DNA of 64,000 bases, from the NCBI GenBank assembly GCA_000310025.1, contig FN649742.1:841383-905382 (forward strand). Reading direction: 5' to 3'. Shown here in pieces: positions 32,185-52,892 of this stretch. The notes under the pieces are model-generated. The model did not search any database. It was given only the letters and a program-made list of their open reading frames with translations, and was not told the origin of the DNA. Source of the DNA: Ectocarpus siliculosus. Its lineage: Eukaryota; Sar; Phaeophyceae; Ectocarpales; Ectocarpaceae. The position numbers and the translations under genes are program-made. Within the stretch, counting starts at the first letter, position 1. Every line of letters begins with the position of its first letter.

Positions 32185-33795
32185 TCATCCGTCTCTCCAC
32201 CATACTTCTCCTCTCCATCCACACGCACCTCCCAGCGTATAAAATCCTCCAGGGTCAAATGGGTACGACGCGCCCCTCTCGAAACCGCAGATGCTGTCGT
32301 CTCCGCTGCTGCTGCAGATCAGGCCGCCGCTGCCGGCGCACGCATCTTGACTGCCCGGTGCCATCGCGGCCACCGGGGACGTCGCTGCGGCTGCCGTCCC
32401 CACCGTCCCCGTTGCGGCTACCACCGCCTTGGCCGTCTCGACACCCGGCGCCATCGCGGGCACCGGGGACGCCGCTGACGCTGTCCCCACCGACGCTGTT
32501 GTCGCCACTGCCGCTGCGGCCGTCTCGATGTCCGGCGCCATCGCGGCCACCGGGGACGCCGCTACTGCTGCAGCCCCCGCCGCCGCTGTTGTCGCCGCTG
32601 TCGCTGCGGCCGATTCGATGACCGGCGCCAACGCGGCCACCGGGGACGTCGCTGCTGCCGCTGTCTCCTCTGCCGCCGTGGTCGCTGCCGCCGCTGCGAC
32701 CGTCTCGATGCCCGGCGTCAACGCGACCACCGGGGACGTCGCCGCTGCTGCTGTCCCCACCGCCGCCGTTGCTGTCACTGTTGATGAAGGCACAGGTGAC
32801 GCTGCTGGCTGCTGATTCGGCGACTGGTGGTGTGCGCTCATGACATACCGGCACGCTTGCTGCGTGGCGCCAAACGACCCGCGCGGAGAATATCCCTCGT
32901 TCTCACCGGTAAACGCGGTCACCGGGGACGTCGCCGCTGCTGCTGTCCCCACCACCGCCGTTGCTGTCACTGTTGATGAAGGCACAGGTGACGCTGCTGG
33001 CTGCTGATTCGGCGACTGGTGGTGTGCACTCATGACATACCGGCACGCTTGCTGCGTGGCGCCAAACGACCCGCGAGGAGAATATCCCTCGTTCTCGCCG
33101 GCAAACTCACCGCCACGCTGCTGCTGATGCAACGAAGAAAATGTGGCAAATCCTCCGTTCCGCTGCGGCTGTGGCGATCGCTGCTGCTGCGGCTGCTGAA
33201 GTCCACCACGATCGCTGCCGTACACCACGCCTGGCTGCTGCTGGTGGAACGCAGACCCTCTGCCAAACCCGCCGTGCCTCCACTGCTGCTGGGACGACTG
33301 CTGTACGGGAACACCTCCGCATGACTGCTGTTGACCATGCTGCTGTTGTACTCCGAGTCCACCGCCGGCTCCGTACTCCCGCTGCACCTCGTAGAGTTGA
33401 TGCTGTGGAAGAGACGCAGGAACGGGCGGGTGTTGCACTATCAACCCGATCCCCCAGCTAGCCAATAGCTCCAAATTCGAGACATCCAGACGTTCCACTT
33501 CGAGACCGAAGCTGTCCAAGAACTCCTGCTCCTCGCTGTTGAGCTGAAGAGACACCGAAACGGACGGATGCTGTACTGCCGGTCCGTTCCTCCCGCAATC
33601 CTGAAAAAAACTAGCCGTTCCCCCGGCTCCATCCCTATAGTATCCAGACGCATACCCGGCGCCATCCACCCTATCTCTAGTAGCGTCCCCCGCTGAACTC
33701 CTCTCCTCTGCCTCCTTAATTTTCCTCCGTAACTCCGCATTCTCGGCTTCCGCTTTCTTCATTCCTTCTTCCAACTCTCTCTCTCTTTCCGTCAT
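32185..33795 (-). CDS. Gln/Ala-rich gag-like protein of the outer LTR element, 536 aa
   Basis: Starts 43 bp inside the 5' LTR in the element's orientation, the usual gag position. N-terminus: charged coiled coil (MTERERELEEGMKKAEAENA). Then LNSEEQEFLDSFGLEVERLD, a poly-Gln/Gly stretch with HQQQ motifs, two nearly identical 64-aa repeats (about aa 225-350), and then a series of roughly 19-aa repeats of the type TSPVAAMAPGIETAAAA. No zinc knuckle, protease or RT. The gag assignment rests on position and composition, not on family similarity; it could be an element-specific accessory protein. Confidence 0.55.
   Translation of the reverse strand: MTERERELEEGMKKAEAENAELRRKIKEAEERSSAGDATRDRVDGAGYASGYYRDGAGGTASFFQDCGRNGPAVQHPSVSVSLQLNSEEQEFLDSFGLEVERLDVSNLELLASWGIGLIVQHPPVPASLPQHQLYEVQREYGAGGGLGVQQQHGQQQSCGGVPVQQSSQQQWRHGGFGRGSAFHQQQPGVVYGSDRGGLQQPQQQRSPQPQRNGGFATFSSLHQQQRGGEFAGENEGYSPRGSFGATQQACRYVMSAHHQSPNQQPAASPVPSSTVTATAVVGTAAAATSPVTAFTGENEGYSPRGSFGATQQACRYVMSAHHQSPNQQPAASPVPSSTVTATAAVGTAAAATSPVVALTPGIETVAAAAATTAAEETAAAATSPVAALAPVIESAAATAATTAAAGAAAVAASPVAAMAPDIETAAAAVATTASVGTASAASPVPAMAPGVETAKAVVAATGTVGTAAAATSPVAAMAPGSQDACAGSGGLICSSSGDDSICGFERGASYPFDPGGFYTLGGACGWRGEVWWRDG
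32727..33110. repeat. 192-bp in-frame tandem duplication in the gag-like ORF
   Basis: The marker CTGTTGATGAAGGCACAGGT occurs at 32778 and 32970, giving a 192-bp period (64 codons), so the frame is kept. Few differences between copies. Confidence 0.9.
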
Positions 33796-33838
33796 CGCTG
33801 TACCAACACCTGGCCTAGCTAGGCTCCACTCGATATCG

Positions 33839-33904
33839 TGTTAGTGCACTGCCGCCCTCAGCGGTCTGTGGTGTTGAGACTGGGGACTATGTTATCCCAG
33901 GAAC
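33839..33904 (-). repeat. split 5' LTR of the outer element, distal fragment
   Basis: First 66 bp (plus-strand order) of the right-hand LTR, identical to 29803-29868. The remaining 232 bp resume at 39060 beyond the nested insertion, giving exactly 298 bp in total. Confidence 0.9.
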
Positions 33905-34233: not shown

Positions 34234-34612
34234 CTTCCATATTGGCGTTCGACGAAGCGTTCTATCTTTACAACCCACGTGTGAAACATGGGCTCCAAAG
34301 GAGGAGGAAAGAAAAAGGACGGAGGGTCGCAACAACAGCAGCAACAGCTGAAAAAGCAAAAGCCGCTGATGACCAAACAGCAGACGAAGCCAAACTCAAG
34401 AAGAGCAATTCGGTTGGCGGGAGCGAACGATGTGGTGAAAGCCGTGACCCACTCCTTCCATATTGGCGTTCGACGAAGCGTTCTATCTTTACAACCCACG
34501 TGTGAAACATGGGCTCCAAAGGAGGAGGAAAGAAAAAGGACGGAGGGTCGCAACAACAGCAGCAACAGCTGAAAAAGCAAAAGCCGCTGATGACCAAACA
34601 GCAGACGAAGCC
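34234..34612. repeat. duplicated leader/gag start with an inverted gag fragment between copies
   Basis: The 158-bp segment 34234-34391 is repeated at 34455-34612. The bases between include 34397-34461, an exact reverse complement of gag positions 35666-35730. The inverted piece joins copy 2 through a shared CTTCCAT. The upstream copy thus carries a decoy ATG (34288) whose frame runs into inverted sequence; the functional gag start is 34509. Confidence 0.9.
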
Positions 34613-36425
34613 GCGCCCCGACGCTGCTGCGCCTAACCACCAAGGCTCGGCTAAGCCCCAAGAGGGACAGTCGACGCCATCCCAAGCTGGGGACACCGCT
34701 GGTGCGGCTGCGAGCGTAGCACCCTCGCAGACCGGTAACCGTGGCGGGTACTTCCAAGCTTTGGTGGGTGGAAGTCGTGACGACAGCGACAACAACAGCA
34801 GCGCTGGCGATGGCGCCGAAGCTGTCACCACCCGACACCGCGACACCGACCCGAACTCCGACGACAATGATGACGACAGCGAAGAAGGCGCCGTTGGCGA
34901 CGACGACGTTGACGACGACCTCGCGCACGACATCCTGCGGAACCGCGCAAGCGCCGCAAGCCAGCAGAGCGGTTCGCTCCTGGCAAGCGGCGGGTCGCTG
35001 GAAGCCGTTCTCGTTGGAGCGGTCACGAAGGCCGTGGAAGCGGAAAAGACCCCACCGGCATGGGTTCTCAACATGCTCATGCCAGGAGCCGTCCACCAGC
35101 ATGATATCCAGCAGGTGAATCCGCGTTCGCTTGCCTCCGATCTAGATGCAGAAAATCGTTCTGGTATGCGCACGACAGTAAGTGTTCAACAGACCCCTGC
35201 TCAGAATATGAATGTGTCTACACCGACAAATTCATCTATTAACCCGGTACACCAAAACACGGTAAACCAGGCCTCACCGAACCAGGTAAACCAGCAGACG
35301 GTAAACCAGGACACCACTACCCCGGTAACCCAAACCACGGTCAACCAGGAAGTGATTAGCACGGCACGGTTCACTTTGAAAGCCAATGACCTACCTCCTG
35401 ATCTCAAGCTCGAGGGTCTGCCTCATGAAGATGTTCCGGAAAAAATGGCACTTTACAGGGCACACATCGGTCTATTGTCAGCCGACAACGTCTCTCAACG
35501 TACAATCGATCACCGCGCAATCAAACATCTCGCGCTATTCGTGCGAGGTGCAGCAGCTCAAAGCCTCAGCCTCATGCTTAGCTCATCTCTCGAATGGCGA
35601 CCGCCAGCTCAGCTAAATGCGTTGCGTGCACGTGGAGAAGTGATCCGCATCACACCTCCGAAAACATGGAAGGAGTGGGTCACGGCTTTCACCACATCGT
35701 TCGCTCCCGCCAACCGAATTGCTCTTCTTGCGCGTGATGTCATGACATTGGAAGCAAAAAGTAGCGAATCAGTTGACGTGTTCGCGCTCCGAGTATCACG
35801 CGCGTATGCCAGACTTCTAGCCGAAGCCGAACGCACAGCTCCGCTGAATGTACCACCTCATGAACACGCATTCAACCAAGCTCTCACCGCCTCTTTTGAG
35901 AACGGTGTACATCCACACATCCGCGTAGAGATGATGCGGGCAGATCCATCCGATTCTTTCATGGAATCTAAAGCGCGTGCTCGTCGACACGAGTCCAACA
36001 AACTGCGCTCTCCCCCTGCCCCCATCTCGGCTACCGCTTCCACCGTGTACGGTTCGGCTCGTTCCGGGCAGCTCCAAACGACTGCGCAGGATAATCGCGA
36101 CCGTATTTCTGCTCTGGAAAATTATATTTCCGGGCAGGAGGCATTCGTGTCCAGTGGTGGAGCGTACAGCACGCAACGCGGTGGGCGTCCTCAGCGGGGG
36201 ACCGACAAACGGGATCGAGACAACTCCAAATCCCGGGGCCCCCCTGCGAGGGCGAAAGCGAAAGTATCGTTTGCTGGGACTACCAAGTCCGACACTGACA
36301 ACACTCGCAAAGAGTGTGACTTTATTGGCTGCCGATTCAGTAGCATTCGCTTCACGCACACCCGTGCCGAGTGTAAAAATGAAGAAGCAGCGAAAAAAGA
36401 GGGGTACAAAGTTACCAAAGACTAG
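34509..36425 (+). CDS. Gag polyprotein of the inner retroelement, 638 aa
   Basis: Structural protein of the virus-like particle. N-terminus Gly/Lys/Gln-rich (MGSKGGGKKKDGG, poly-Q), then an acidic Asp-rich segment, repeats of Q/NQ type (VNQ, about aa 255-285) and a helical capsid-like part (about aa 310-520: RAIKHLALFVRGAAAQSL, TWKEWVTAFTTSFAP). The C-terminal basic region has ECDFIGCRFSSIRFTHTRAEC, a Cys/His set that may be a zinc finger, although not the classic knuckle spacing. Ends at TAG 36423-36425, directly followed in the same frame by pol. Confidence 0.85.
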   Translation: MGSKGGGKKKDGGSQQQQQQLKKQKPLMTKQQTKPRPDAAAPNHQGSAKPQEGQSTPSQAGDTAGAAASVAPSQTGNRGGYFQALVGGSRDDSDNNSSAGDGAEAVTTRHRDTDPNSDDNDDDSEEGAVGDDDVDDDLAHDILRNRASAASQQSGSLLASGGSLEAVLVGAVTKAVEAEKTPPAWVLNMLMPGAVHQHDIQQVNPRSLASDLDAENRSGMRTTVSVQQTPAQNMNVSTPTNSSINPVHQNTVNQASPNQVNQQTVNQDTTTPVTQTTVNQEVISTARFTLKANDLPPDLKLEGLPHEDVPEKMALYRAHIGLLSADNVSQRTIDHRAIKHLALFVRGAAAQSLSLMLSSSLEWRPPAQLNALRARGEVIRITPPKTWKEWVTAFTTSFAPANRIALLARDVMTLEAKSSESVDVFALRVSRAYARLLAEAERTAPLNVPPHEHAFNQALTASFENGVHPHIRVEMMRADPSDSFMESKARARRHESNKLRSPPAPISATASTVYGSARSGQLQTTAQDNRDRISALENYISGQEAFVSSGGAYSTQRGGRPQRGTDKRDRDNSKSRGPPARAKAKVSFAGTTKSDTDNTRKECDFIGCRFSSIRFTHTRAECKNEEAAKKEGYKVTKD

Positions 36426-38918
36426 GGTCGCCCGAGTAGGCAGCGTCCTTCGGCCAACGTGGGACACCAATCATTTGGTTCTGTCAAACCAGTAAGTACA
36501 AACTGGGATAGACTGCAAAGTTCGAGCAAGCAGAAGAGAGCCAAAGTAGATGAGAGGGATTCAAAACACTGTAAAAATGGTGTACGATCTCTGGTGGGAA
36601 AAAAGAAGAAAGCAATCAGAGAGCAACGCTGTAGCAAGACAGTTGAAGTACATGTAACACGAGAATATTCTCGCGAAGGTTGTAGCAACAAGCAGACGCG
36701 AGGGGTTCCGAAGTCAAGTACCAGCACAGCTGATGCAGTAGCCTCTGTAGCTCCAGCACTAAGGGATAGCACCCAAGTAGGGCAAGTAGCCGCCTGTTTA
36801 GCGCCGCAAGCCTTGCACGTAGCTACCGTAGCTGGGGACTTCAGGTCGAAACATAGGTCCAACCTAATGAGAACTGACCGTAATGAAGAATTTCAAGCTT
36901 TTTACATGTCGGCACTCGCTGGATATCCCGTGTGTCCATCGGTATTGCGATCGACATCCAAGCGAGTACGCGTACCCGCCAGAATAAATAATGAATCGGT
37001 TGATGAAATAACAATCGACACGGCGTGTGACATACCATGCATATCACGAAAGTTCATGAGAAGTCACAAAACGTTAAAAAACACGGAAATATTTCCGGTA
37101 CCCCCTGGAGCAATCAATCTGCGAAGCGCTGATGGTTCGCCCCTAAAAATTGCAGGGTACACTCGATTTGAACTGACACTAGGCGAAATCACATTACCTG
37201 TTGAAGCTCTAGTGCTGCCGTCGTTGGGACCAGATAATATGCTACTCGACAATAGCATAATGGGCGCATTTGGTGGTGTTCTTGACTGGCAAGCGGAAGA
37301 ACTGTCGTTTAAAACAGCAGCAACCAAAATTCCAGCTGTCCACCGCAAAACGCGCTATCCCACGACTGATCAGGGAAACAGTTTGAACTGTTCTGTGGTA
37401 GCAGTAGAGAGGGACACACCTGTGATGCCTGTATACACTACACGGAAATGCAGCATACCTGCACAACATGAGATAGCTGTTGAAATTCATTCGCTTGAGG
37501 CACCAGATGAAACCACAGCTGCCGTAGTTGAACCGCGCATCGTTACGTCCGATGACGTGGGCAAGCAGGATACACCAGATGCATTCCGCAGAGTGATAGT
37601 GGCACGCACGGTCTGTCACTGGTATCAGCACAACAAAAGTGCAATGGTCCAACTGGCCAACCCTTCTCACAGACCGGTATCCTTAAAGAGGAATACGCTC
37701 ATAGGCTATATTTCTCCAGTGAAAACAGTACTGCCGCAAACAATGAGCAGCGTTCAATCGAGTCCTGCAGAAACGGAAAAAATTCGTGCAGATCTCACAA
37801 AAGCATTAGCCAAAGCTTTCCGAGATACAACTTTTTCGCCCGACCAGTGTGAAGAAATGCTTAAACTGTGTACCAAATACCGTTCAGTGTTCTCCCTGAG
37901 TCCTAAAGAACTGGGCAGATGTACTCTTACAGAGGCTGATTTTCCATTACAACCGGGGACAAAACCAGTCAACCGAGCTCCATATCGTGCTAATCCACGA
38001 ATGCAAGAGGTCATTGACAAATGTGTTGGTGAAATGGAAGAAGCCGGGATAATCGAACAAAGAGCGAGCCCATGGGGGTCAGCAGTAACGTTGGTAGCAA
38101 AAGCTGACGGCAGTCCCCGATTCTGTGTAGACTACAGAGCGACGATCAACAAGAATTTAATTCGTAAATCGTGGCCAATGCCTGAAATGGCAAGTCATAT
38201 CGACACCGTAGCAGGTGCTAAATACATCACAGTCTGCGATGTACAAAGTGCATACCACCAAATACCAATTGCCGAAGCAGAACAAGACAAGACTGCATTC
38301 GTTACTCGGGATGGAAAATGGGTTTTCAAACGACTCCCCTTTGGCATCGCCAATGCGCCTTTTCTGTTTCAACGTACGATGGCATTGACTTTCGCACATT
38401 TTGGTCCAAAGTCTGGTCTTCTTGTGTACATGGATGATCTTATTTGTTGTTCATCTACATGGGAGGGTCATATCTCTCTTTTGGAAAATACCTTCCAAGC
38501 GCTACAAGCCGCAGGTCTTACATTAAAACCATCAAAGGTACAATTTGGGCCAAAGGAAGTGAAGTATTTGGGGCATGTTCTTTCCGCAGATGGCATACGA
38601 TTAGGTGACGATCGAATAAAATCGATACTAGAGTTGCCAACGCCAACGAACATCAAAAGTTTGCGATCAGTCTTAGGAACGGTCAACTATGTCAGGAAAT
38701 TCATCCCAGACTTAGCCGCCGTTACCGCACCAATGGTTGACCTTACGAAGAAAGACGCAGTGAAGTCGGTAGCGAAACGCTGGGGTCCGAAACATGATGA
38801 AGCATTTGCTGAAGTGAAACGATTACTCACCAACGCCCCTGTTTTGCATTTTCCGGACTTTTCTAAGGAGTCTTCCCACCGTTTTTCTTTTTCCGTTATC
38901 CGGAAGAAAATTTGGTGA
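36426..38918 (+). CDS. Pol polyprotein fragment: protease and reverse transcriptase; RNase H and integrase missing
   Basis: Open in the same frame as gag from the base after the TAG; an internal GTG or ATG is not needed if the stop is read through. Protease region near 37014: TIDTACDIPCISRKF, with DTA where DTG/DSG is usual. Reverse transcriptase about 37960-38750: SPWGSAVTLVAKADGSPRF, CDVQSAYHQIPI, LPFGIANAPFLFQR, VYMDDLI (catalytic Asp pair near 38430), KYLGHVLSADG, all diagnostic of Ty3/Gypsy RT. The thumb/connection follows (VNYVRKFIPDLA). The frame stops at TGA 38916-38918, right after HFPDFSKE, where RNase H should begin. The last 15 codons look unrelated. Confidence 0.9.
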   Translation, partial: GRPSRQRPSANVGHQSFGSVKPVSTNWDRLQSSSKQKRAKVDERDSKHCKNGVRSLVGKKKKAIREQRCSKTVEVHVTREYSREGCSNKQTRGVPKSSTSTADAVASVAPALRDSTQVGQVAACLAPQALHVATVAGDFRSKHRSNLMRTDRNEEFQAFYMSALAGYPVCPSVLRSTSKRVRVPARINNESVDEITIDTACDIPCISRKFMRSHKTLKNTEIFPVPPGAINLRSADGSPLKIAGYTRFELTLGEITLPVEALVLPSLGPDNMLLDNSIMGAFGGVLDWQAEELSFKTAATKIPAVHRKTRYPTTDQGNSLNCSVVAVERDTPVMPVYTTRKCSIPAQHEIAVEIHSLEAPDETTAAVVEPRIVTSDDVGKQDTPDAFRRVIVARTVCHWYQHNKSAMVQLANPSHRPVSLKRNTLIGYISPVKTVLPQTMSSVQSSPAETEKIRADLTKALAKAFRDTTFSPDQCEEMLKLCTKYRSVFSLSPKELGRCTLTEADFPLQPGTKPVNRAPYRANPRMQEVIDKCVGEMEEAGIIEQRASPWGSAVTLVAKADGSPRFCVDYRATINKNLIRKSWPMPEMASHIDTVAGAKYITVCDVQSAYHQIPIAEAEQDKTAFVTRDGKWVFKRLPFGIANAPFLFQRTMALTFAHFGPKSGLLVYMDDLICCSSTWEGHISLLENTFQALQAAGLTLKPSKVQFGPKEVKYLGHVLSADGIRLGDDRIKSILELPTPTNIKSLRSVLGTVNYVRKFIPDLAAVTAPMVDLTKKDAVKSVAKRWGPKHDEAFAEVKRLLTNAPVLHFPDFSKESSHRFSFSVIRKKIW

Positions 38919-42213: not shown

Positions 42214-45200
42214 ATGGACGAAGGTAAGCACACGTGGAAAAGGGCACGACGGTAGATTTGCCGAAGATGGTTGCGAAACGTTGGGAGCGTACCGTATTTT
42301 TTTGTACACATCATCTGGCACGGGTTGTTAACTTGTTAGTTTTCCCCGGAAGAAGGCCAACCATCTCATGACGGCTCTTGGTGTTTCGATTGGGCTATAG
42401 ACTAAACCCGATAGAATTAATGAAGCTGTCTACCACTGGGTACCCCGCAAGCGATTCGTTCGGCGCTTATTCCCACTGCTGTGGTGGACGAATTTTGCAG
42501 ACTATACTACATGAGACCACATCCGTCTGGTAGGATATCAGTGGCACTTCGTCTGTAGAACAACGGGTAGACCGCGTATTTTGCTCACCTTCTATCTATT
42601 TGTTTCAGCGCCAGGTAAGCATGGTTGTGCACCAATCACACGGTTATACTACCCCAACCTGTGTTTCACGGTGCTTTCTCACGCAGACACTACACCCACC
42701 CGCCTGGGCGTAAATCACGAACTTGATTGACGTTTATAACCGATCCACGTATGTACTTTTGTATGTATGAGGTTGTTGATGAGTCGTATAGGGACGCCCA
42801 GCGTGTGTTCGTTCGTTGTTTGCCTGACATGCGGCAGCAATAGCACGAAACAAGCATAGATTGTCTCTTCTTGTTGCCTCTGCGAGTTCTGTATGCATGT
42901 TGTCCATGGCCATCCCAGCTATTCCCTGCTTGGTGATTTTTTCAAAGGTACTGTTGTAACATATGAAAGAATATTACGCTTTTCTGGTGTCCTCACGGAA
43001 GGTTGAAGTGGGTTTAGCATTTGGTGCTGAGAGGGTTCGCCCTGGTCGCTGCTATATACCACCGTCCTAAAAGGCACACTATCGCATTATTTCCCGTAAC
43101 GCACAGCGAATGCATCCACAACAACAGCATGATCGAGATCTCCCTCCTCAGTGTATTTTACCGGCGACTCGTTTCGGCAGACCCCTCACCTAGGAAGAAC
43201 GCGCAGTCAAGGTCTGGGTAGCCGCATGGGTAGATCTCGAAACCGCAGCTGACCACCCTGCCTGATGTGCCATACCGCCCCCCGCCCTCGCATCTCTCTT
43301 TGTTCCAGTATTGATAGAGGCACCTCATGTCGTACAGACGATGGAAGCGATTCTCTCGCGCGAGAACTATATCTACGAGAGTCAAGAGATGGACAACATG
43401 ACCCTGCTCAGGGCGCGTTTCCAAGAGAGGTACACCATTACCTTCTCCTGCATGCAGGAGAACTCGGTTCGCAGCACAATGAGGGCAATCCTAAGCGACA
43501 AAATCGAAAGCCAGCGACAGCGGAGCGTGGCGGCGACGTACATTGCCAAGGTCAGAAAATAGTACACCCCCTTTAATTGTCCCTGCCCTGAAACTTTCGA
43601 CCCGGAACGCTCTCAATACTTTGGCCTGACCCAGGGTATTTTTTGGAGTACATACACGGTGGACGTTTTTCTGTGTTTTTTCGGATATTCTATTTGTTCA
43701 TGGTCGACGCACCGGTAGCTCATCGAGTTCCATGTGGTGAGGCCGTACATCATTGTGGCCTTTGTCTTACATTTCAACAACGCAGAGGCCGGACGCCTTG
43801 GTTGCAGTGGGAGAAATCCGTGAGATGGGTGTGGCATTTGTGTGGAACGAGGGAACACACAATCAGTTATATTTTGTCTTCCTCCTTCCCGTAGGGAATT
43901 TTCTTCATGGTGTACCATTTTTCGTTGCGTGATGGTGGACGTGGGGGTAGGCTACCCCATACACTTTTCGACGGCTCCCTCCTCCTCCTGGCCAACCTTG
44001 AGTAGGCTACCGTGATGTACTGGGAATGTCTCGTTGCGGGACACTCTGAGGCTTGCCGTGTCTCCCTCAGTCCAAGCAACACATGCATTTTAGATCTTCA
44101 CGCAACAAGTGATTTGATGATGTTGCGCGATCGATTTGAATGAAATCATCGATACGTTCCCCACGTAAAGTGCTCCCCATTACAGCTCCGGCGTGAACCT
44201 GCAAGAAACGGGTCCCCGCATGTTCTCCAAGGGCTTAAAGCGAATCGTGATGCTGCCTCAGATTCTTCTTTTGCCGATTCTTCCGATTAGTTGCAGGTTG
44301 CACTCGTGGGCATTTTTTTCCCAACACTTACAGCAAAAAGAAGTGTTGGTCGTCCTCTAACTTCCCCCTTTATTTTTACTTGTGCGCATGACTTGTCCCT
44401 TACGACGTGGTGGCCAACAAGGCCAACTTTCGTCTCAACGTTGGACAATTTCGGATTGATCTGACGGACGGCGAGGTGGTTTTCCACTCCACTCAGCCGC
44501 TCAAGGGGATGACTCTCGGGGATTGCATCCCCCTACTTCACTCGTGGTAAGCAGCAGGCGACGGCACGCTGATACAGACATCGCGTACGTAGGGCCACAA
44601 TGTATCACATATGCATGCCAGGTTATATGGAGGGTGTTGTGTTCCAGTAGCAGAATCTCAACCCCACGCGCACGCATGCGGTGGGAAGCGCGAACTGCGC
44701 TCGGTGGCTTTTTGAGCGAGACGGATGGATGCGAGGCTCTCTGATGTTGTCGATCCCCATTCAACGGCGGTACATAGACTACAAGTATCCTGTTGTATAC
44801 AATATTACTATTCTGGTCATCTTGCAGATAAATACAACAACGTTGCAAATGTTCATCGGGCAACGATCGATTGTCACAATTTCAACTTCCAACAATAGCG
44901 GCACCCGTCGCTGCACCGCTGTCAGGCAACCCCGGCGCCCACATCCATCCGCGTATATACGAAGAGTATCGATACACCCCCGTCATACCCGCTCTCACAA
45001 AAAAATGCCGGACGACACGTCAACCTTCAGGTTCAAAGCGTTCATGGCCACTTTTGCCGTCTATCGCCATGGCATGAAGGCCCTCATCGAAGGACGGAGC
45101 CTTGAGGCAGCAGAGGGGGTCGTGGACCAAACGTTGTCCTCAATACGCGGTGGATCTAGCTCCTCGCCTTCAGAAGGTGCGGTGACGTCGCTGACCACTA

Positions 45201-48200
45201 TAGAGCGGGTACACACCCACGGTTTTGGAGCCTTAGGATACCTCATCCCAGACTGGGTGGTTGTATAAAAAAGGGAAGGAGGAACATGCGCTTGGCAGGA
45301 CTCGGGCTGACTTGAGCTTTTCGCAGCAAACAAACCCTGCGGGTGAGTGTTGATTGAGATTGTTCTAAATCACGAACGAAGATTTGATGCGCAAAGGAAG
45401 TTTCATTGCCCCAACGGCCTTTGTTCTTCCACAAGGGGAAGATAAAACGAAATTCAGTGCTCATCTGCTGGTTTTCGCCCGAGGGTGTCCATGACGGGAA
45501 TGGTTTGCATCAGCCACTTGCGTAGGGCGTTAGGGGGTGGACGGAGAACGCGGACTATCTTCCGCGGACGGACGTGGGACAACCGTATTTCAGCAACCGC
45601 ATGATGGCTAGAAGCCATGCCAATAGCAGCTTTGCCAGTCTGCCTTCCTACCTGCTTGCCTGACGCGTCATTTTGCGCCTCCTCCACCTCGCTTTCTCGT
45701 ATGCTCTAGCGCCGACGGCGAAGATAACGTCGGCATTCGTCACGCAGGCGATGGAAGACATCTTCAAGGGCAGGGAGTACGTCTACGAAGTGATACAGTC
45801 CGACTCCTCCGTCACCACGCTGAAAGCGAAGTTCACGGGAGGGTACACGGTACGGTTCATGTGCAAACCGGGGAACAACATTCGCAGCACTATGCTCGCA
45901 GTCCTCGAAGACAAGGTTGGCGACGAACGACAGCGGAGCGTCGTCGCGACGTACTTTGCCCAGGTAAAAGGACAATATTTGTTTTTTGCACGGTACTGCT
46001 GAAGGGCATGACACGTTCCACTTCGACGGTCGTCGCTCGCACGGAAGAACCTTCTTTCCAATGGCTTGTCGACACCATAAGCCCTAATTTTCTGTTTGCC
46101 AGACGAATACCTGTCGTCCTTTGAGTAGAACACAGGCTAATTGAGTATTGGCAAGTGATCTAGGTTATCCCCCTTCTAGCCAAAGAAAGGTTCATAATGG
46201 AATGGTTGTTATAACGTTGTTACCCTTGATTTCCGTGGATACCTGGGGCAGTTTACATACATGTAGCTGTCGCGCTTCCGATCGATGCAATCCATGTGAT
46301 GTACGCAAGAATTATTATCGTGTTGCTGTACGTTTACATGTGCCGCCCCCCACAACCAACCCCGTCCCGGGCGATCTGTTCGTTTCGGCGTGGCCAGGTT
46401 AACTTTAATCTCAACAACGGAAAGTTCGAGCTCGACATGCGTGACGGCGAGGTGATGTACAACTGCACCCTGCCTCTTGAGGGAATGACGCAATCAGACT
46501 GCACTCATCTTCTTCGATCATGGTGAGCAGTGCAATTCTTCTACTGTACACAGTACAAGGTTCGGAGATTTCGCAGGTGCTAGCCACCCAATCGAGTCGC
46601 TCCCCCGCTGGCCATACCCCGCAAATCCTTCTGCGGACGTCATGCTCAACGGCTTATTTATGTTGTCCTGTACATTTTCCCTTGGTGGGGGATGATGGGG
46701 GGTGCTGGTTCTATCCTGTGAAGGTTGCTCTATGCTGCTGAGCAGGTCTGCGCGTGGAAATCTCACAGTACGAAGATACAGCAGCAGTCGTTTTGTTATC
46801 GAAACGTCAGAGCCACCACTGCTGTACTAGTACAGAGTGGCTACTGTAGTCATCCGGCATTACGCATGCCGAGACCACGGATATGTAACCGAGAAGCACC
46901 CAAAACCGTTTGAAGCGGTAAGCAAGGGCTTACCGCCGTGGTCCGGGGAAGCCGATTTACGTGTGTGAGACTTTTGCGTGCGCGACACGCTCCCTTTCGT
47001 TGCGCATGGAGCTGTTTTCGTTGGCGAGGATAAAATAAGCGTTTGCACCAACCCCTTGCACCCTGGTGGTGCTCTGTTATACAGTATACTCACACATCCA
47101 GCTCCCACTCAACCAATGCACAACAACAAACAAACTACGCCATCAGGTTCTCGGTGTTCATGGCCACTTTCTACGTCTACATGCCCGGACTGAAACTCAT
47201 CATCGGGGGAGGGAGCATCGAAGACGCGAACGCGGCCAAAGCCAGGCTGTTGGAAGAGGAACGCGGCGGCGGTAGCTCTCGTCGCCCGGCACCCGAACCC
47301 GAACCCGTCTCGTCGTCGTCGTCTTTTTCTTCTTCTTCGACGACGACGACGACGCCGACGCCGACGCCCGCTCCGGTTCCCCAACCTTCGCCGGTGCGAC
47401 CTTCACGGGCGGCCGAGAACTCCGTCGCCGCCAAGGCATTCAAGGACCTGCTGCTCGAACGCGGGGACTGCTGCTCGCTGGAATCGGACGTCGAGGGTGC
47501 CTCGCACGTGGTGCAGGGCGTGTACGACTACAAGGGTGCTACGGCCGTGATCTGGGCCTGCGACAAGACGGACGAGAAGATGCTGGAGGTCCGGGTCTTC
47601 ATGGTGGATGCCGTTCCCCGGCACCGAGTGGAGCCCCTGTCACGACTCATCGAAAAAGTGAACACCAACAGCGCCGTCGGGGGCTTCAAGCTCGGTGAGA
47701 AAATGTGAAACTGCGTACCACATAAACTATGGGTCTTTGTTTTTGGAGTGACGTCGAAAACAGAAAGTGTCAACGACCTGTGATAGGGTTCTGTTTACGC
47801 AAGGAAAGGAGGGAGTTTTTTTGTTTGAGGTTTCGCCGGATGCATGTTAATCGCAGCCGTTTGGACATGACTGGGATCTCTCGGCACCCCGCCGCGACGT
47901 ACCTTGCATGCATCTTAATCGCAGCCGTTTGGACATGACTGGGATCTCTCGACACCCCGCCGCGACGTATCTTGGTGTTTGATCATGAAACCGCCACCCC
48001 CCGGTATACATCCATTTCGCGTACCTGACATCGTATTGTACCGCTGTGCCGAATACGTACATGACTTTTGGGGGCTCGACAGATGAGGAGAACGGACGGC
48101 TGTACTACGGGTACAGCGTTCCGTACGGTGGTCTAACGGATGGTCAGCTCACGGTCCTCGTCAGGGGAAAGTCCCTCCAGCTTTGCCTTGGTGAGACGCC

Positions 48201-49240
48201 GCCGCTTCTCTGTAGTTCTACGTCCCGCCGCTATTCTCTGTGTCTGTGTTTTGTTTCGCTCAACTTCCATTGTCTTGGGGGCAACAATGACCCATCCCTT
48301 GTCTGCGCTACGTGATACCTGGTAGAGAATAACGTTGACGCTTAGCGGGTATTTATTTCTCACCCTGAGCTGAAAAAAACGCCACCTTGTGAGCACTAGG
48401 CAGCGCCGACACATGGGGGAAATGCGTTGAAGATGATGCACTAGGCAGCGCCGACACATGGGGGAAAGGCGTTGAAGATTATGACATAACGTTCACCACG
48501 ATAATAGCTGGGGAGAGTTTGGGTCCTTTTCTTACGACCTCTAGCCTCAACAGTATTACTGATTTTTTTCGGTACATCTGTCGCTTTCGTGGATACATCT
48601 CATCTCGCGTCGCGCCAATTGTGTGCAACGCAAAGACCCGCCGCGTCCGTTCTCCGCGCCGTCGTCCACATTTTCGGTCAAGCGCAGGGACCCACCTGGA
48701 ATTCCTCCCGTCGATTAAAGCCGTCATTCACGACAGCGCTCCCGTCCCCCCCTCCGTCGACATGATCCGGTCTACGTACCACACGACGAGGGACAACCCG
48801 GAGTCCGACTTCCACAAGAACGAGCTGGTGCCGTCCCGGCACGAAGGCCCTTCGGCTGCCACCATGCCGGGTGTAAATCGCCATCGCCCCCGACCGCCGC
48901 CACCCGCCTACGGGTTCGGGACGGCCCCGAGTTCGCGGGACGTCAAGGACGCCGCGGGGGTGATGCCGCGCGTGCCGCAGCTGGCGGTCGAAGACCTGGA
49001 CTTTCAGGACGAGTCGGGCAGGGGTGGCATGGGGTTCGTGAGGAAAGCGGTGTACCGGAAGGGCGCCGAGGTGGCGGTGAAAGAACTCCTGCCAAGCCTG
49101 GCGAAGGACGACTACGACCTGTTCGTGAGAGAGATGCGGGTACACTTTAGCATCCCGTCGTTCCCACACATCGTGCCCGTGAGTCTGACTTGACGTTTTT
49201 GACGTTTTTGACGTTGTTGATGTTGATTTCGCGAGCTACC

Positions 49241-49277
<37 letters not shown>

Positions 49278-52200
49278 GTGATAGATGTACCATTTTTTTC
49301 ATCGGGAATAGAGGGACATTTTGCTGTTCACCACTTTGGCTTTTCAAACATTTTGGTGAGCAAAGTCGGGGGCAGGCGTAGGGCATCTACCATATCCCAC
49401 CACGTTCCAATTCGACGTACGTTCCTGGGTGGTGTTAGTGTGACAATCAGCCAAGTTTCTCTGTGCCCCGCGTGTCTGACGTTTCACCTACGTACCGAGC
49501 GATGTGAGAAATAGCTGTTGGTGTTATATACTAAAGCTTGAGCGACGCTGAACCGCGCATAGGCTCATCGGTCGCATCTTCTCCAACGGATGGTCCGCTG
49601 AAACCACACAGCAATAAATAGTTGAGATTCGCCCACCAACATAATCTAATATTCAAATACTCAACGCCTTTCCCCCCGCGATGGTATTCACAACACCAAA
49701 ACCCACAACCAGATGGTGGGCGTCACTCAAAGGAGCAAGTCCGACCGCGCGCTGCGGCTTGTGACGGACTGGTGCAACGGCGGTTCCCTGCAGACCCTGC
49801 TCAACGACGCGTTTGGTGGAGACGAAATGGAGGTATGTAGAAGAGGAACACCTGACGTACACTTTTACACACGATGGATTCTGCAAAGACGGGGTGACAC
49901 CGATGCCGCGCCATAGCGTATGGGGCAGATATGTATGGCTGTTCATGCAGTGATAGCGTCCCTCATGAACGCTTGTTGGTTGCGGGGGGCAGTCGCGATT
50001 CTGCGTCTGTCTGCGCTTGATAGGAGAAAGGGTAATGATGCGGAAGTCTTTGTAGTTGCTCCGTTGCCCTGACAAATTGTCCAACCGGCTTCGTGCCGCA
50101 AACACCACCGTGCCGTTGCCTGCGTGGTGCAGCGTTATTGCCGACTCGCCCATTGACTCGCTGGTTTTGCACGCAGGTTATCACCTACGGTGACGCGTTG
50201 AAGTATGCTCGCCACATCGCCGCGGGGGTTGACCACCTTCACCGGCACAAGCTCCTTCACCTCGACCTCAAGCCCGGCAATGTCATGGTGAGAGAGGGAG
50301 GTTCATGAAGACACAACAAAGAGGGTTATCACCATGCCGCCCCCCCTTTGATTCGGCTTTGGTGTCTCAACAGTCTAACCGTCAGTGCAACGGAAGAGTG
50401 CTGCCCTGCCGGATCGATGCTCGTACTGAAAAAAATTGAAACAACGGTGGCCGAAGACTCTTCGACTCGAGAGAGACATAGCGATTGTACGGCACTGACA
50501 TGAACGTACCAAAGGGTGGCGAGATGAAGTATTCTTCGTCCTGCGCACATGAATAAAAAACGATTGCCTGGGTAGGTCTCAATCTTTGGCTGCGAGAAGC
50601 ATATTGTCCTGGCTGTAACTCATACATGTACGATCTGACAATCGGCAGCTCGACAGAGCCGGCGGCGGGGGCAAAGCGAAGCTGACGGACTTCGGCCTGG
50701 CCAAGATCATCTCGAACGGTACCCAAACATCCAACCGCACGCTAGGCGGAACATTCGGGTAAGTTCGGTCACCCGCGTGGATGGTTCAACTATACCAGAA
50801 CGCCATGACTGACAATGACAAGCGCTTGGTAAAATAGAACGCGTGCGTTTTCGCCGCCGGGGTGGTTGGGACAATGGCGGTGACGCCCTTGTTCGGTGGT
50901 ACTTCACGGACGGAAGTTCAATTCCCACCAGAGAGAGGGCGGTCATAGCAGCCTATATGTACCAAGAACAGAAGGCGACGTGACTGTGTAACGGGCGTAG
51001 CTGATTTGGCAACGACCACGCTCACTTCCGCCGAGACACAAAACCCCCCGAGAATTCTGGGCTGTGGCGTGTTTCCACAAAATCTATGCCCTGGTTTTTT
51101 TACCCTCTTTCGTCTGCCATTTTCCAAAAATGAATCACTTGCCCCCAAGGTTTTTAACTTTCCACTCAGTACCCCAAGCAACTCCCCACGCATCCTTTCT
51201 CAAACGCGCCAGTTTCATGGCGCCTGAGGTCATCGAGCCAGGAAAATTCACGAAGGAATTGAGGAGCGGCCCTCACACCGACGTCTTCGCGTTGGGCGTT
51301 ACCGTCTTCCTGCTGTTCACCGGCTACCACCGCCCCTACAAGCCCGATGTTTCTGGCCATGCTATCAACCAGGAGGTTCGTCTTTTCACATTTCTTTTGT
51401 GTGTAGGTTTCGCCCAAGGCCAAAAGCCTTTTTTTCTCGATGCTCTTCCAACGCGATTCGTCAGAAGCATTCGTAAGACAGGATCGTGACCTGGTGGTGG
51501 TGGTGGTAGTAGTGGTTATCGCGTGAAGCTCTCTTCCCTTGTGCGTACTGCCGTGCATGTTTGCATTATCAAAAGCTTCGATTGGGCTTCGATTGGGACA
51601 TACTGTTTACGTGCTGCGTACGCTGTGAGCTCTCACCAGCCAACCTCCGACTGCACTCTAGATTTTGGTACACTGGTGGAAGGTCACTTACAATCGTTTT
51701 TGTGCCTGTCCCGGGAAACAGGGCATGCCAACTTCGCCGAGCTCCGTCAACCATCGTTGCATTTGTTTCCTTTTGTACGCATCGAACGCCTCTCAGCCAG
51801 TCGCCGTTCTGCTCATTATATCTTGGCTAGTCGTACGTGGCTCGCGCGTGCGATCCAGCAAACAAAACTACATACCGAAAAGACCGTAGTATCTATAAAG
51901 GTTGCACCCGGTAAAAATGTCCTAAGGAGGAACGGGTAAAACATCCTCGGGTCGTGGCCACCAAAAGGATGGGGTATGTATAGCTCGGGTGGTTGAGTTA
52001 GACCGGTCGGGTGTACACGTTAATATTACCACACCCGCAGCACCAACATTTTGTGCAATGGGTTCCCATCCAACAAGAATTTTTTCATTACCACCAGAGT
52101 GAGGACATCCAAGCGAGAACTTAAGAAAAAGCAATACACGCCGGTGTTTAATCTGTACGTGTCCCGGGCGAATCAACACCATCTGCACTGCTGGCGGCAG

Positions 52201-52892
52201 GTGTGCCGGGGTCTCCGCCCCGAATTTCCCGCCGGGTTTTCCTGGCCTGGAGGAAGCCCCGTAACTGAGCGGGTCCAGAACCTCATCCAGGGGTGCTGGG
52301 CGAACGACCCGGAGAAGCGTCCAGCGGTGGACCATATTCTCAACACCCTCTACCAGATAGAATCCATGGTGCGTTGTTCGCGGTTCATGGGGTTGGCATG
52401 GCTCGTCGCAACCATTCCACGCTCTTGTTGCTTCTTCTGTGGGTGATTCTTCGTGTGTTGTCAGGTCGACCGTTTGGTGTTGAAGGATGTTGATGCTTTT
52501 ATGTGGTTGAGATCCACACCTCAGCAGCAGCTAAGAGCACCCTGCATGATAAAAAATAGTTCGCGGCGACACGAGGGTCAGCAGCTACACAGCATGATGC
52601 GACTAGAGAGAAAGCGGAGGCTGCACGCTCTGTGTGTGTGTGTTTTTTCGTCCTATTTACTATGGCGACACCAATCGAGGAATTTCGGGCACACGGCAAC
52701 AATCGGTTGTTCAAACGCACACGGCATTGGCACCCTCGCACGTTTTTCGCTTTGTTTAAATCAATCCTCGCACCCGGTTGTCAATTCTCTTGCTTCTCCC
52801 GTGTTGTGCGAAAAAAGGTCAAGGACGCCGACGGCATGGAGCGAGCAATCTCTCCGCAGACCCTGCCAATCGTATCCTCATTCAGGTTGTGA
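42214..52892 (+). CDS. protein kinase with three N-terminal YbjN-like modules, complete 15-exon gene, 931 aa
   Basis: Exons: 42214-42223, 43309-43550, 44422-44546, 45031-45176, 45710-45963, 46398-46522, 47147-47694, 48083-48190, 48688-49178, 49713-49832, 50177-50287, 50649-50758, 51213-51375, 52201-52368, 52818-52892. All GT-AG, all phases match, 2796 nt in total; start context CACCATGG. Three modules (about aa 1-174, 175-330, 380-535) share the pattern YT(I/V)xFxC, (S/N)xRSTMxAxLxDK, RQRSVxATY, then FxLDxxDGEV, PLxGMT and a final helix (MKALIEG, LKLIIGG, IKAVIHD). I assign them to the YbjN-like fold by pattern, not by search. The linker in exon 7 is Ser/Thr/Pro-rich. Kinase domain: GRGGMGFV, VAVK lysine, HLDLKPGN, LTDFGLAK, MAPEV, ending in WANDPEKRP; all catalytic residues are present (HLD in place of HRD). 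No signal peptide or membrane span, so probably cytosolic. Confidence 0.88.
47842..47977. repeat. 68-bp tandem duplication in intron 7
   Basis: Two nearly identical copies containing TTAATCGCAGCCGTTTGGAC (second at +68). Confidence 0.85.
48392..48481. repeat. 45-bp tandem duplication in intron 8
   Basis: GCACTAGGCAGCGCCGACAC occurs at 48393 and 48438. Confidence 0.85.
49243..49276. repeat. (GA)n microsatellite in intron 9
   Basis: Uninterrupted GA dinucleotides just downstream of the donor of the exon ending at 49178. Confidence 0.9.

Follow-up and report, generated by a model that had tools for sequence, protein, structure and literature searches.

The gene model and its surroundings

The window analysed here is a stretch of 64,000 nucleotides of Ectocarpus siliculosus DNA. 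Its positions 42214-52892 (forward strand) hold a gene model of 15 exons that was rebuilt exactly, exon by exon, and yields a protein of 931 aa, with three YbjN-like modules (M1, M2 and M3) preceding a protein kinase domain (Table 1). All 14 introns are of the GT...AG type and the junction phases are consistent, and the preliminary description, in which the spliced model closes, was reproduced in coordinates, exon count, length and phases. The G+C content at codon positions 1, 2 and 3 equals 0.595, 0.445 and 0.759, respectively, compared with 0.505 across the first 13 introns. The first exon, of only 10 nt, has its start codon in the context CACCATGG; both this exon and the last one are uncertain parts of the model, and the domain cores are untouched by either.

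Table 1. Features of the kinase gene and of the neighbouring retroelement (positions in the window).
Feature	Position	Strand	Description
Gag-like ORF	34506-36425	+	PF03732 17.9 bits, below cut-off
Pol ORF	36426-38918	+	Reverse transcriptase PF00078, E = 2.4e-26; partial RNase H match below cut-off
Exon 1	42214-42223	+	Start codon and first M1 codons, aa 1-4; GT donor, phase-1 junction giving MDEV; uncertain
M1 (YbjN-like)	43309-45176	+	aa ~4-174; exons 43309-43550, 44422-44546, 45031-45176
M2 (YbjN-like)	45710-47261	+	aa ~175-339; exons 45710-45963, 46398-46522, first part of 47147-47694
M2-M3 linker	47262-47402	+	Low-complexity, Ser/Thr/Pro-rich, aa ~340-386; exon shared with parts of M2 and M3
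M3 (YbjN-like)	47403-48731	+	aa 387-534; rest of exon 47147-47694, exon 48083-48190, first ~15 codons of 48688-49178
M3-kinase linker	48732-48992	+	Proline-rich, aa 535-621; within exon 9
Protein kinase domain	48993-52368	+	aa 622 to ~903; end of exon 48688-49178, exons 49713-49832, 50177-50287, 50649-50758, 51213-51375, 52201-52368
Exon 15	52818-52892	+	Short C-terminal tail and stop; alternative in-frame ends possible

Three repeats were noticed by eye in the introns: a stretch of ~65 bases present twice in tandem 3' of exon 7 (47843-47975), another of ~40 bases, also twice in tandem, 3' of exon 8 (48394-48480), and a GA dinucleotide repeat (49243-49276) 3' of exon 9, in the first intron within the kinase domain. 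Upstream of the gene lies a retroelement on the same strand (34506-38918), with a gag-like ORF followed by a pol ORF. Directly upstream of the gene, at ~40.1-40.8 kb, there is a long run of N, possibly an assembly gap. On the reverse strand, positions 32185-33840 hold a low-complexity open frame of 551 aa with internal repeats, which had no Pfam match at E ≤ 0.01.

The kinase domain and the three modules

When the whole protein was compared with Pfam, the kinase profile PF00069 scored 153.5 bits (E = 9.2e-45) and PF07714 126.6 bits. The motifs GRGGMGFV (aa 630), VAVKEL (648), VREM (666), HLDLKPGN (751), DFGLA (774) and APEV (800) mean that the Gly loop, the VAVK lysine, the alphaC glutamate, HxD, DFG and APE are all present between aa 630 and 803, and the earlier claim of a kinase with all catalytic residues agrees with these intact motifs and with the PF00069 score. 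Because the catalytic loop HLDLKPGN is without the HRD arginine, the kinase is of the non-RD kind. Among the best 60 of 2278 related PDB chains, CaMKII comes first (75.5 bits), followed by RIPK3, TAK1 and RIPK2, with CTR1 lower; the domain is likely a TKL-like Ser/Thr kinase, with CaMKII mixed among the best chains. The likeness to TKL kinases with RIPK/IRAK-like non-RD loops covers the kinase domain, akin to RIPK3, RIPK2 and TAK1, and the HxD loop lacking Arg; RIPK/IRAK kinases carry death-fold or similar domains, whereas in the algal protein the YbjN-like modules occupy that place. Non-RD kinases are tied to innate immune signalling across kingdoms in the available part of PMC8463890, which serves here as a lead and not as evidence. 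Oomycete kinases, also from stramenopiles, are comparable in that many are TKL and joined to unusual domains (PMC3019232), but the excerpted accessory-domain table of that paper lists no YbjN.

In the 189-Mb, 492-contig assembly of the alga's own genome, 58 kinase matches were obtained at E ≤ 0.01; six of them are this gene, and the best other piece is 37% identical. For 4 of the 52 other matches, the surrounding 10-kb pieces were read and contained no YbjN-like open frame (best E = 1.7).

The Pfam check that the preliminary description had suggested for its three YbjN-like modules bears them out, as PF10722 (YbjN) matches the whole protein in three stretches (50 bits, E = 4.5e-13). Taken singly, and with the curated Pfam cut-off of 22 bits, M3 lies above it (27.3 bits, E = 4.6e-6), M2 is 0.4 bit short of it (21.6 bits, E = 2.7e-4) and M1 is below it (12.9 bits). 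In the reverse test, a profile built solely from the three algal modules was run on 299 Pseudomonadota genomes and matched in 8 of them (E ≤ 0.01), and all 8 matches coincide with PF10722 places found independently. PF10722 itself matches in 139 of the same genomes (E ≤ 0.001), so the algal profile detects a small part of the family: 131 of the 139 PF10722-bearing genomes were missed (at thresholds of 0.01 and 0.001), and E. coli YbjN was absent from its matches up to E = 20. Against the open frames of 21 bacterial loci, the algal profile reached E ≤ 1 in 15, with the best value of 6.7e-7.

The hhalign comparison was made with 20 bacterial YbjN sequences, which are the top PF10722 scorers seeded from the best algal-profile hit and are thus biased toward a match. 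With this bias, the three-module alignment gave a probability of 83.8% (E = 7.8e-6), M2 alone E = 9.4e-4 (22%, colinear over 135 columns), M3 alone E = 0.0032 (10%), M1 with M2 E = 0.0053 (7%) and M1 alone E = 0.021 (2%), the last value being close to the best shuffle; in the controls, the best of ten M2 shuffles reached E = 0.033 and the kinase piece E = 0.36. By these comparisons, the case for M3 as YbjN-like in its own right appears strong and that for M2 good, while M1 would be YbjN-like indirectly, mainly via its 46% identity to M2.

Searches of the PDB by sequence returned no YbjN, and the profile search no T3SS chaperone either; NCBIfam gave one chance-level match (AcrR, E = 0.13). AlphaFold models of half modules, made from unspliced pieces, were of low confidence (pLDDT 68 and 57), and at that confidence the predicted order of elements is H-E-E-E-H for M2 and H-E-E-E-E-H for M3, the YbjN fold being alpha-beta3-alpha-beta2-alpha. 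Fold searches with these low-confidence half modules were uninformative and are not taken as support: neither Foldseek nor VIA-align placed a YbjN or T3SS-chaperone chain among the best 50 rows each; rows for dsRBD proteins, Acb4 and DcrB (Z 6.3) were set aside as too weak.

Continuity and history of the fusion

M2 and M3 are fused in the DNA itself, since one exon (47147-47694) encodes the C-terminal part of M2, the Ser/Thr/Pro-rich linker and roughly two thirds of M3. This junction inside a single exon speaks against an accident of the gene model or assembly, by which modules and kinase would be separate genes joined on paper, and we consider such an accident highly improbable. On the kinase side, the ~15 residues at the start of exon 9 (48688-49178) continue M3 in phase with exon 8 and are followed by the Pro-rich linker and the kinase N-lobe, and the hhalign comparison of M3 (E = 0.0032, probability 10%) pairs them with the end of bacterial YbjN. 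Since the Pfam stretch of M3 ends in exon 8, short of exon 9, this junction is graded as probable and not as certain, i.e., exon 9 probably carries the last 15 residues of M3 beside the kinase N-lobe. A joining on paper would gain from this small share of M3 in exon 9, with its weak alignment, from M1 being connected to the remainder solely across a phase-1 intron, and from a model that is known from genomic sequence and has a micro-exon start and an uncertain last exon; against it stand the M3-like end in exon 9, phases that all fit, a GC3 of 0.76 and a dN/dS below 1 between M1 and M2. The earlier assertion that the fusion is no annotation accident therefore stands for M2-M3 and for the phases, but it has to be softened to probable for the M3-kinase junction and, for M1, to a joining across an intron. 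A pseudogene was also considered and was rated as improbable, given the intact frames and a dN/dS of ~0.43.

The two internal introns of M1 correspond to those of M2 in alignment column and in phase (0 and 2), and a phase-1 intron bounds the M1 unit on either side; common positions and phases of this kind indicate that the unit was duplicated after intron gain. Over 162 codons, the NG86 estimates for the pair are dN 0.46 and dS 1.08, and at the DNA level three short matches are left, all on exons and extending at most 8 bases past them. M3 differs in its intron positions and is 19% identical to M2 in the alignment. Judged from these patterns, a unit that already carried introns was copied to give M1 and M2, which then evolved under constraint; M3 has diverged further. 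In brown-algal ROCO genes, repeat units are reported to have undergone exon shuffling (available sections of PMC11378527).

Proposed function, precedents and further copies

In the available excerpts of two papers, YbjN proteins are dimers thought to work by protein contacts without enzymatic action, with dimers reported for AmyR and DR1245, and YbjN is related in fold to the T3SS class I chaperones (PMC5398634, PMC3575483). A third source, likewise excerpted, classes the YbjN superfamily with peptide-binding chaperones (PMC9503650), and taken together the three describe dimeric, chaperone-like protein binders rather than ligand sensors (PMC5398634, PMC3575483, PMC9503650), which refines the earlier suggestion of ligand- or partner-binding sensors that control the kinase. 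From the dimers, the protein contacts and the peptide-binding superfamily in these excerpts, we infer a region that would act as sensor or adaptor, binding a client or partner and setting the proximity of kinase domains. The reading that we lean towards, with some reserve, is that of a single gene for a TKL-like, probably cytosolic Ser/Thr kinase; its N-terminal half, made of three YbjN (T3SS-chaperone-like, "TY-chaperone") modules, would form a dimerising, client-binding regulatory region. M1 and M2 may associate within the molecule as a pseudo-dimer that offers a surface for binding peptides or proteins, while M3 would pair in trans or bind an adaptor; the binding of a client or partner would then gather kinase domains, or present that client to the kinase, with proximity as the main means of control. 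No clear transmembrane stretch was found in the protein (best 19-residue mean hydropathy 1.53, in M2), and its location is probably cytosolic.

The same chaperone-like fold family and the client binding of YbjN and T3SS chaperones, as far as the excerpts go (PMC5398634, PMC3575483, PMC9503650), together with the low-complexity linkers that flank M3 on either side, would also suit a substrate-chaperone scaffold. Here the modules would keep one dedicated client partly unfolded, as T3SS chaperones do, and the tethered kinase would phosphorylate it constitutively, without sensing or switching. However, the client is only putative and three modules exceed the apparent need of one client, and we regard this as unlikely. 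It is also quite unlikely, in our view, that M1-M3 are a pure dimerisation domain that merely oligomerises the kinase without a ligand. Family-wide conservation in YbjN concerns the core and the dimer interface and not the surface, according to the available part of PMC5398634, and the non-RD loop HLDLKPGN would suit activation of the proximity type, both in keeping with dimerisation alone; yet a set of three copies, of which M3 has diverged strongly, points to more than a single role. In the excerpt of PMC8463890, activation-loop phosphorylation matters in one non-RD kinase, and such activation-loop control argues against pure dimerisation and against a simple proximity-only reading.

If the preferred reading of a client-binding regulatory region is true, a fold known from bacterial secretion or stability chaperones now serves a eukaryotic kinase as its regulatory half. 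The algal protein would be a concrete, expressible means to ask what YbjN modules bind, as well as a further candidate component of brown-algal signalling, about which little is known. A bolder scenario, to which we give little credence, is that an algal ancestor captured a bacterial chaperone-like module, which gained introns, was duplicated as a phase-1-flanked exon unit and was turned into the sensor half of a kinase of the non-RD kind; the protein would then be an algal counterpart of the RIPK/IRAK adaptor kinases, recognising peptides or client proteins, perhaps microbial, via a chaperone groove.

Compared with the YbjN family PF10722 (AmyR, DR1245 and Synechococcus YbjN), the modules are alike in sequence profile, with M2 colinear along most of the domain, but the members described in the excerpted literature are stand-alone bacterial dimers, while three copies are found here in one eukaryotic kinase. 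The TY-chaperones (T3SS chaperone/YbjN superfamily) share the superfamily, and TY-Chap2 has two domain copies per protein; in the accessible text of PMC9503650, however, they are described in ADP-ribose-centred conflict systems and not on eukaryotic kinases. Among the bacterial PF10722 matches listed, judged by eye, none is adjacent to another and the open frames that contain them do not exceed 334 aa, so there is no tandem or kinase-fused YbjN among them. The literature searched, including the available parts of PMC5398634, PMC3575483, PMC9503650 and PMC8756737, with many subscription papers outside its scope, contained no YbjN-kinase fusion, and within these bounds the initial impression that no described system has this layout was supported.

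Single-protein searches of the own genome with M2 and M3 gave 5 and 3 matches, respectively, all at this locus; strongly diverged copies would escape such searches. The direct PF10722 search of that genome returned 0 matches and 0 candidates, and since it missed the present locus too, whose domains are split by introns, it is uninformative on further copies. On the contigs of other genomes, the module alignment gave 54 pattern matches with no relative among them; on viral contigs, it gave 56 pattern matches and M3 gave 16, again with no relatives, and M2 had no pattern match. A single plasmid match to M3 (E = 4) was discarded. Brown algae have an expanded EsV-1-7 repeat family, and its profile PF19114, which had no match in 14 control genomes (five or more of them bacterial), gave at least 150 matches in the own genome (150 of 880 candidates scored).
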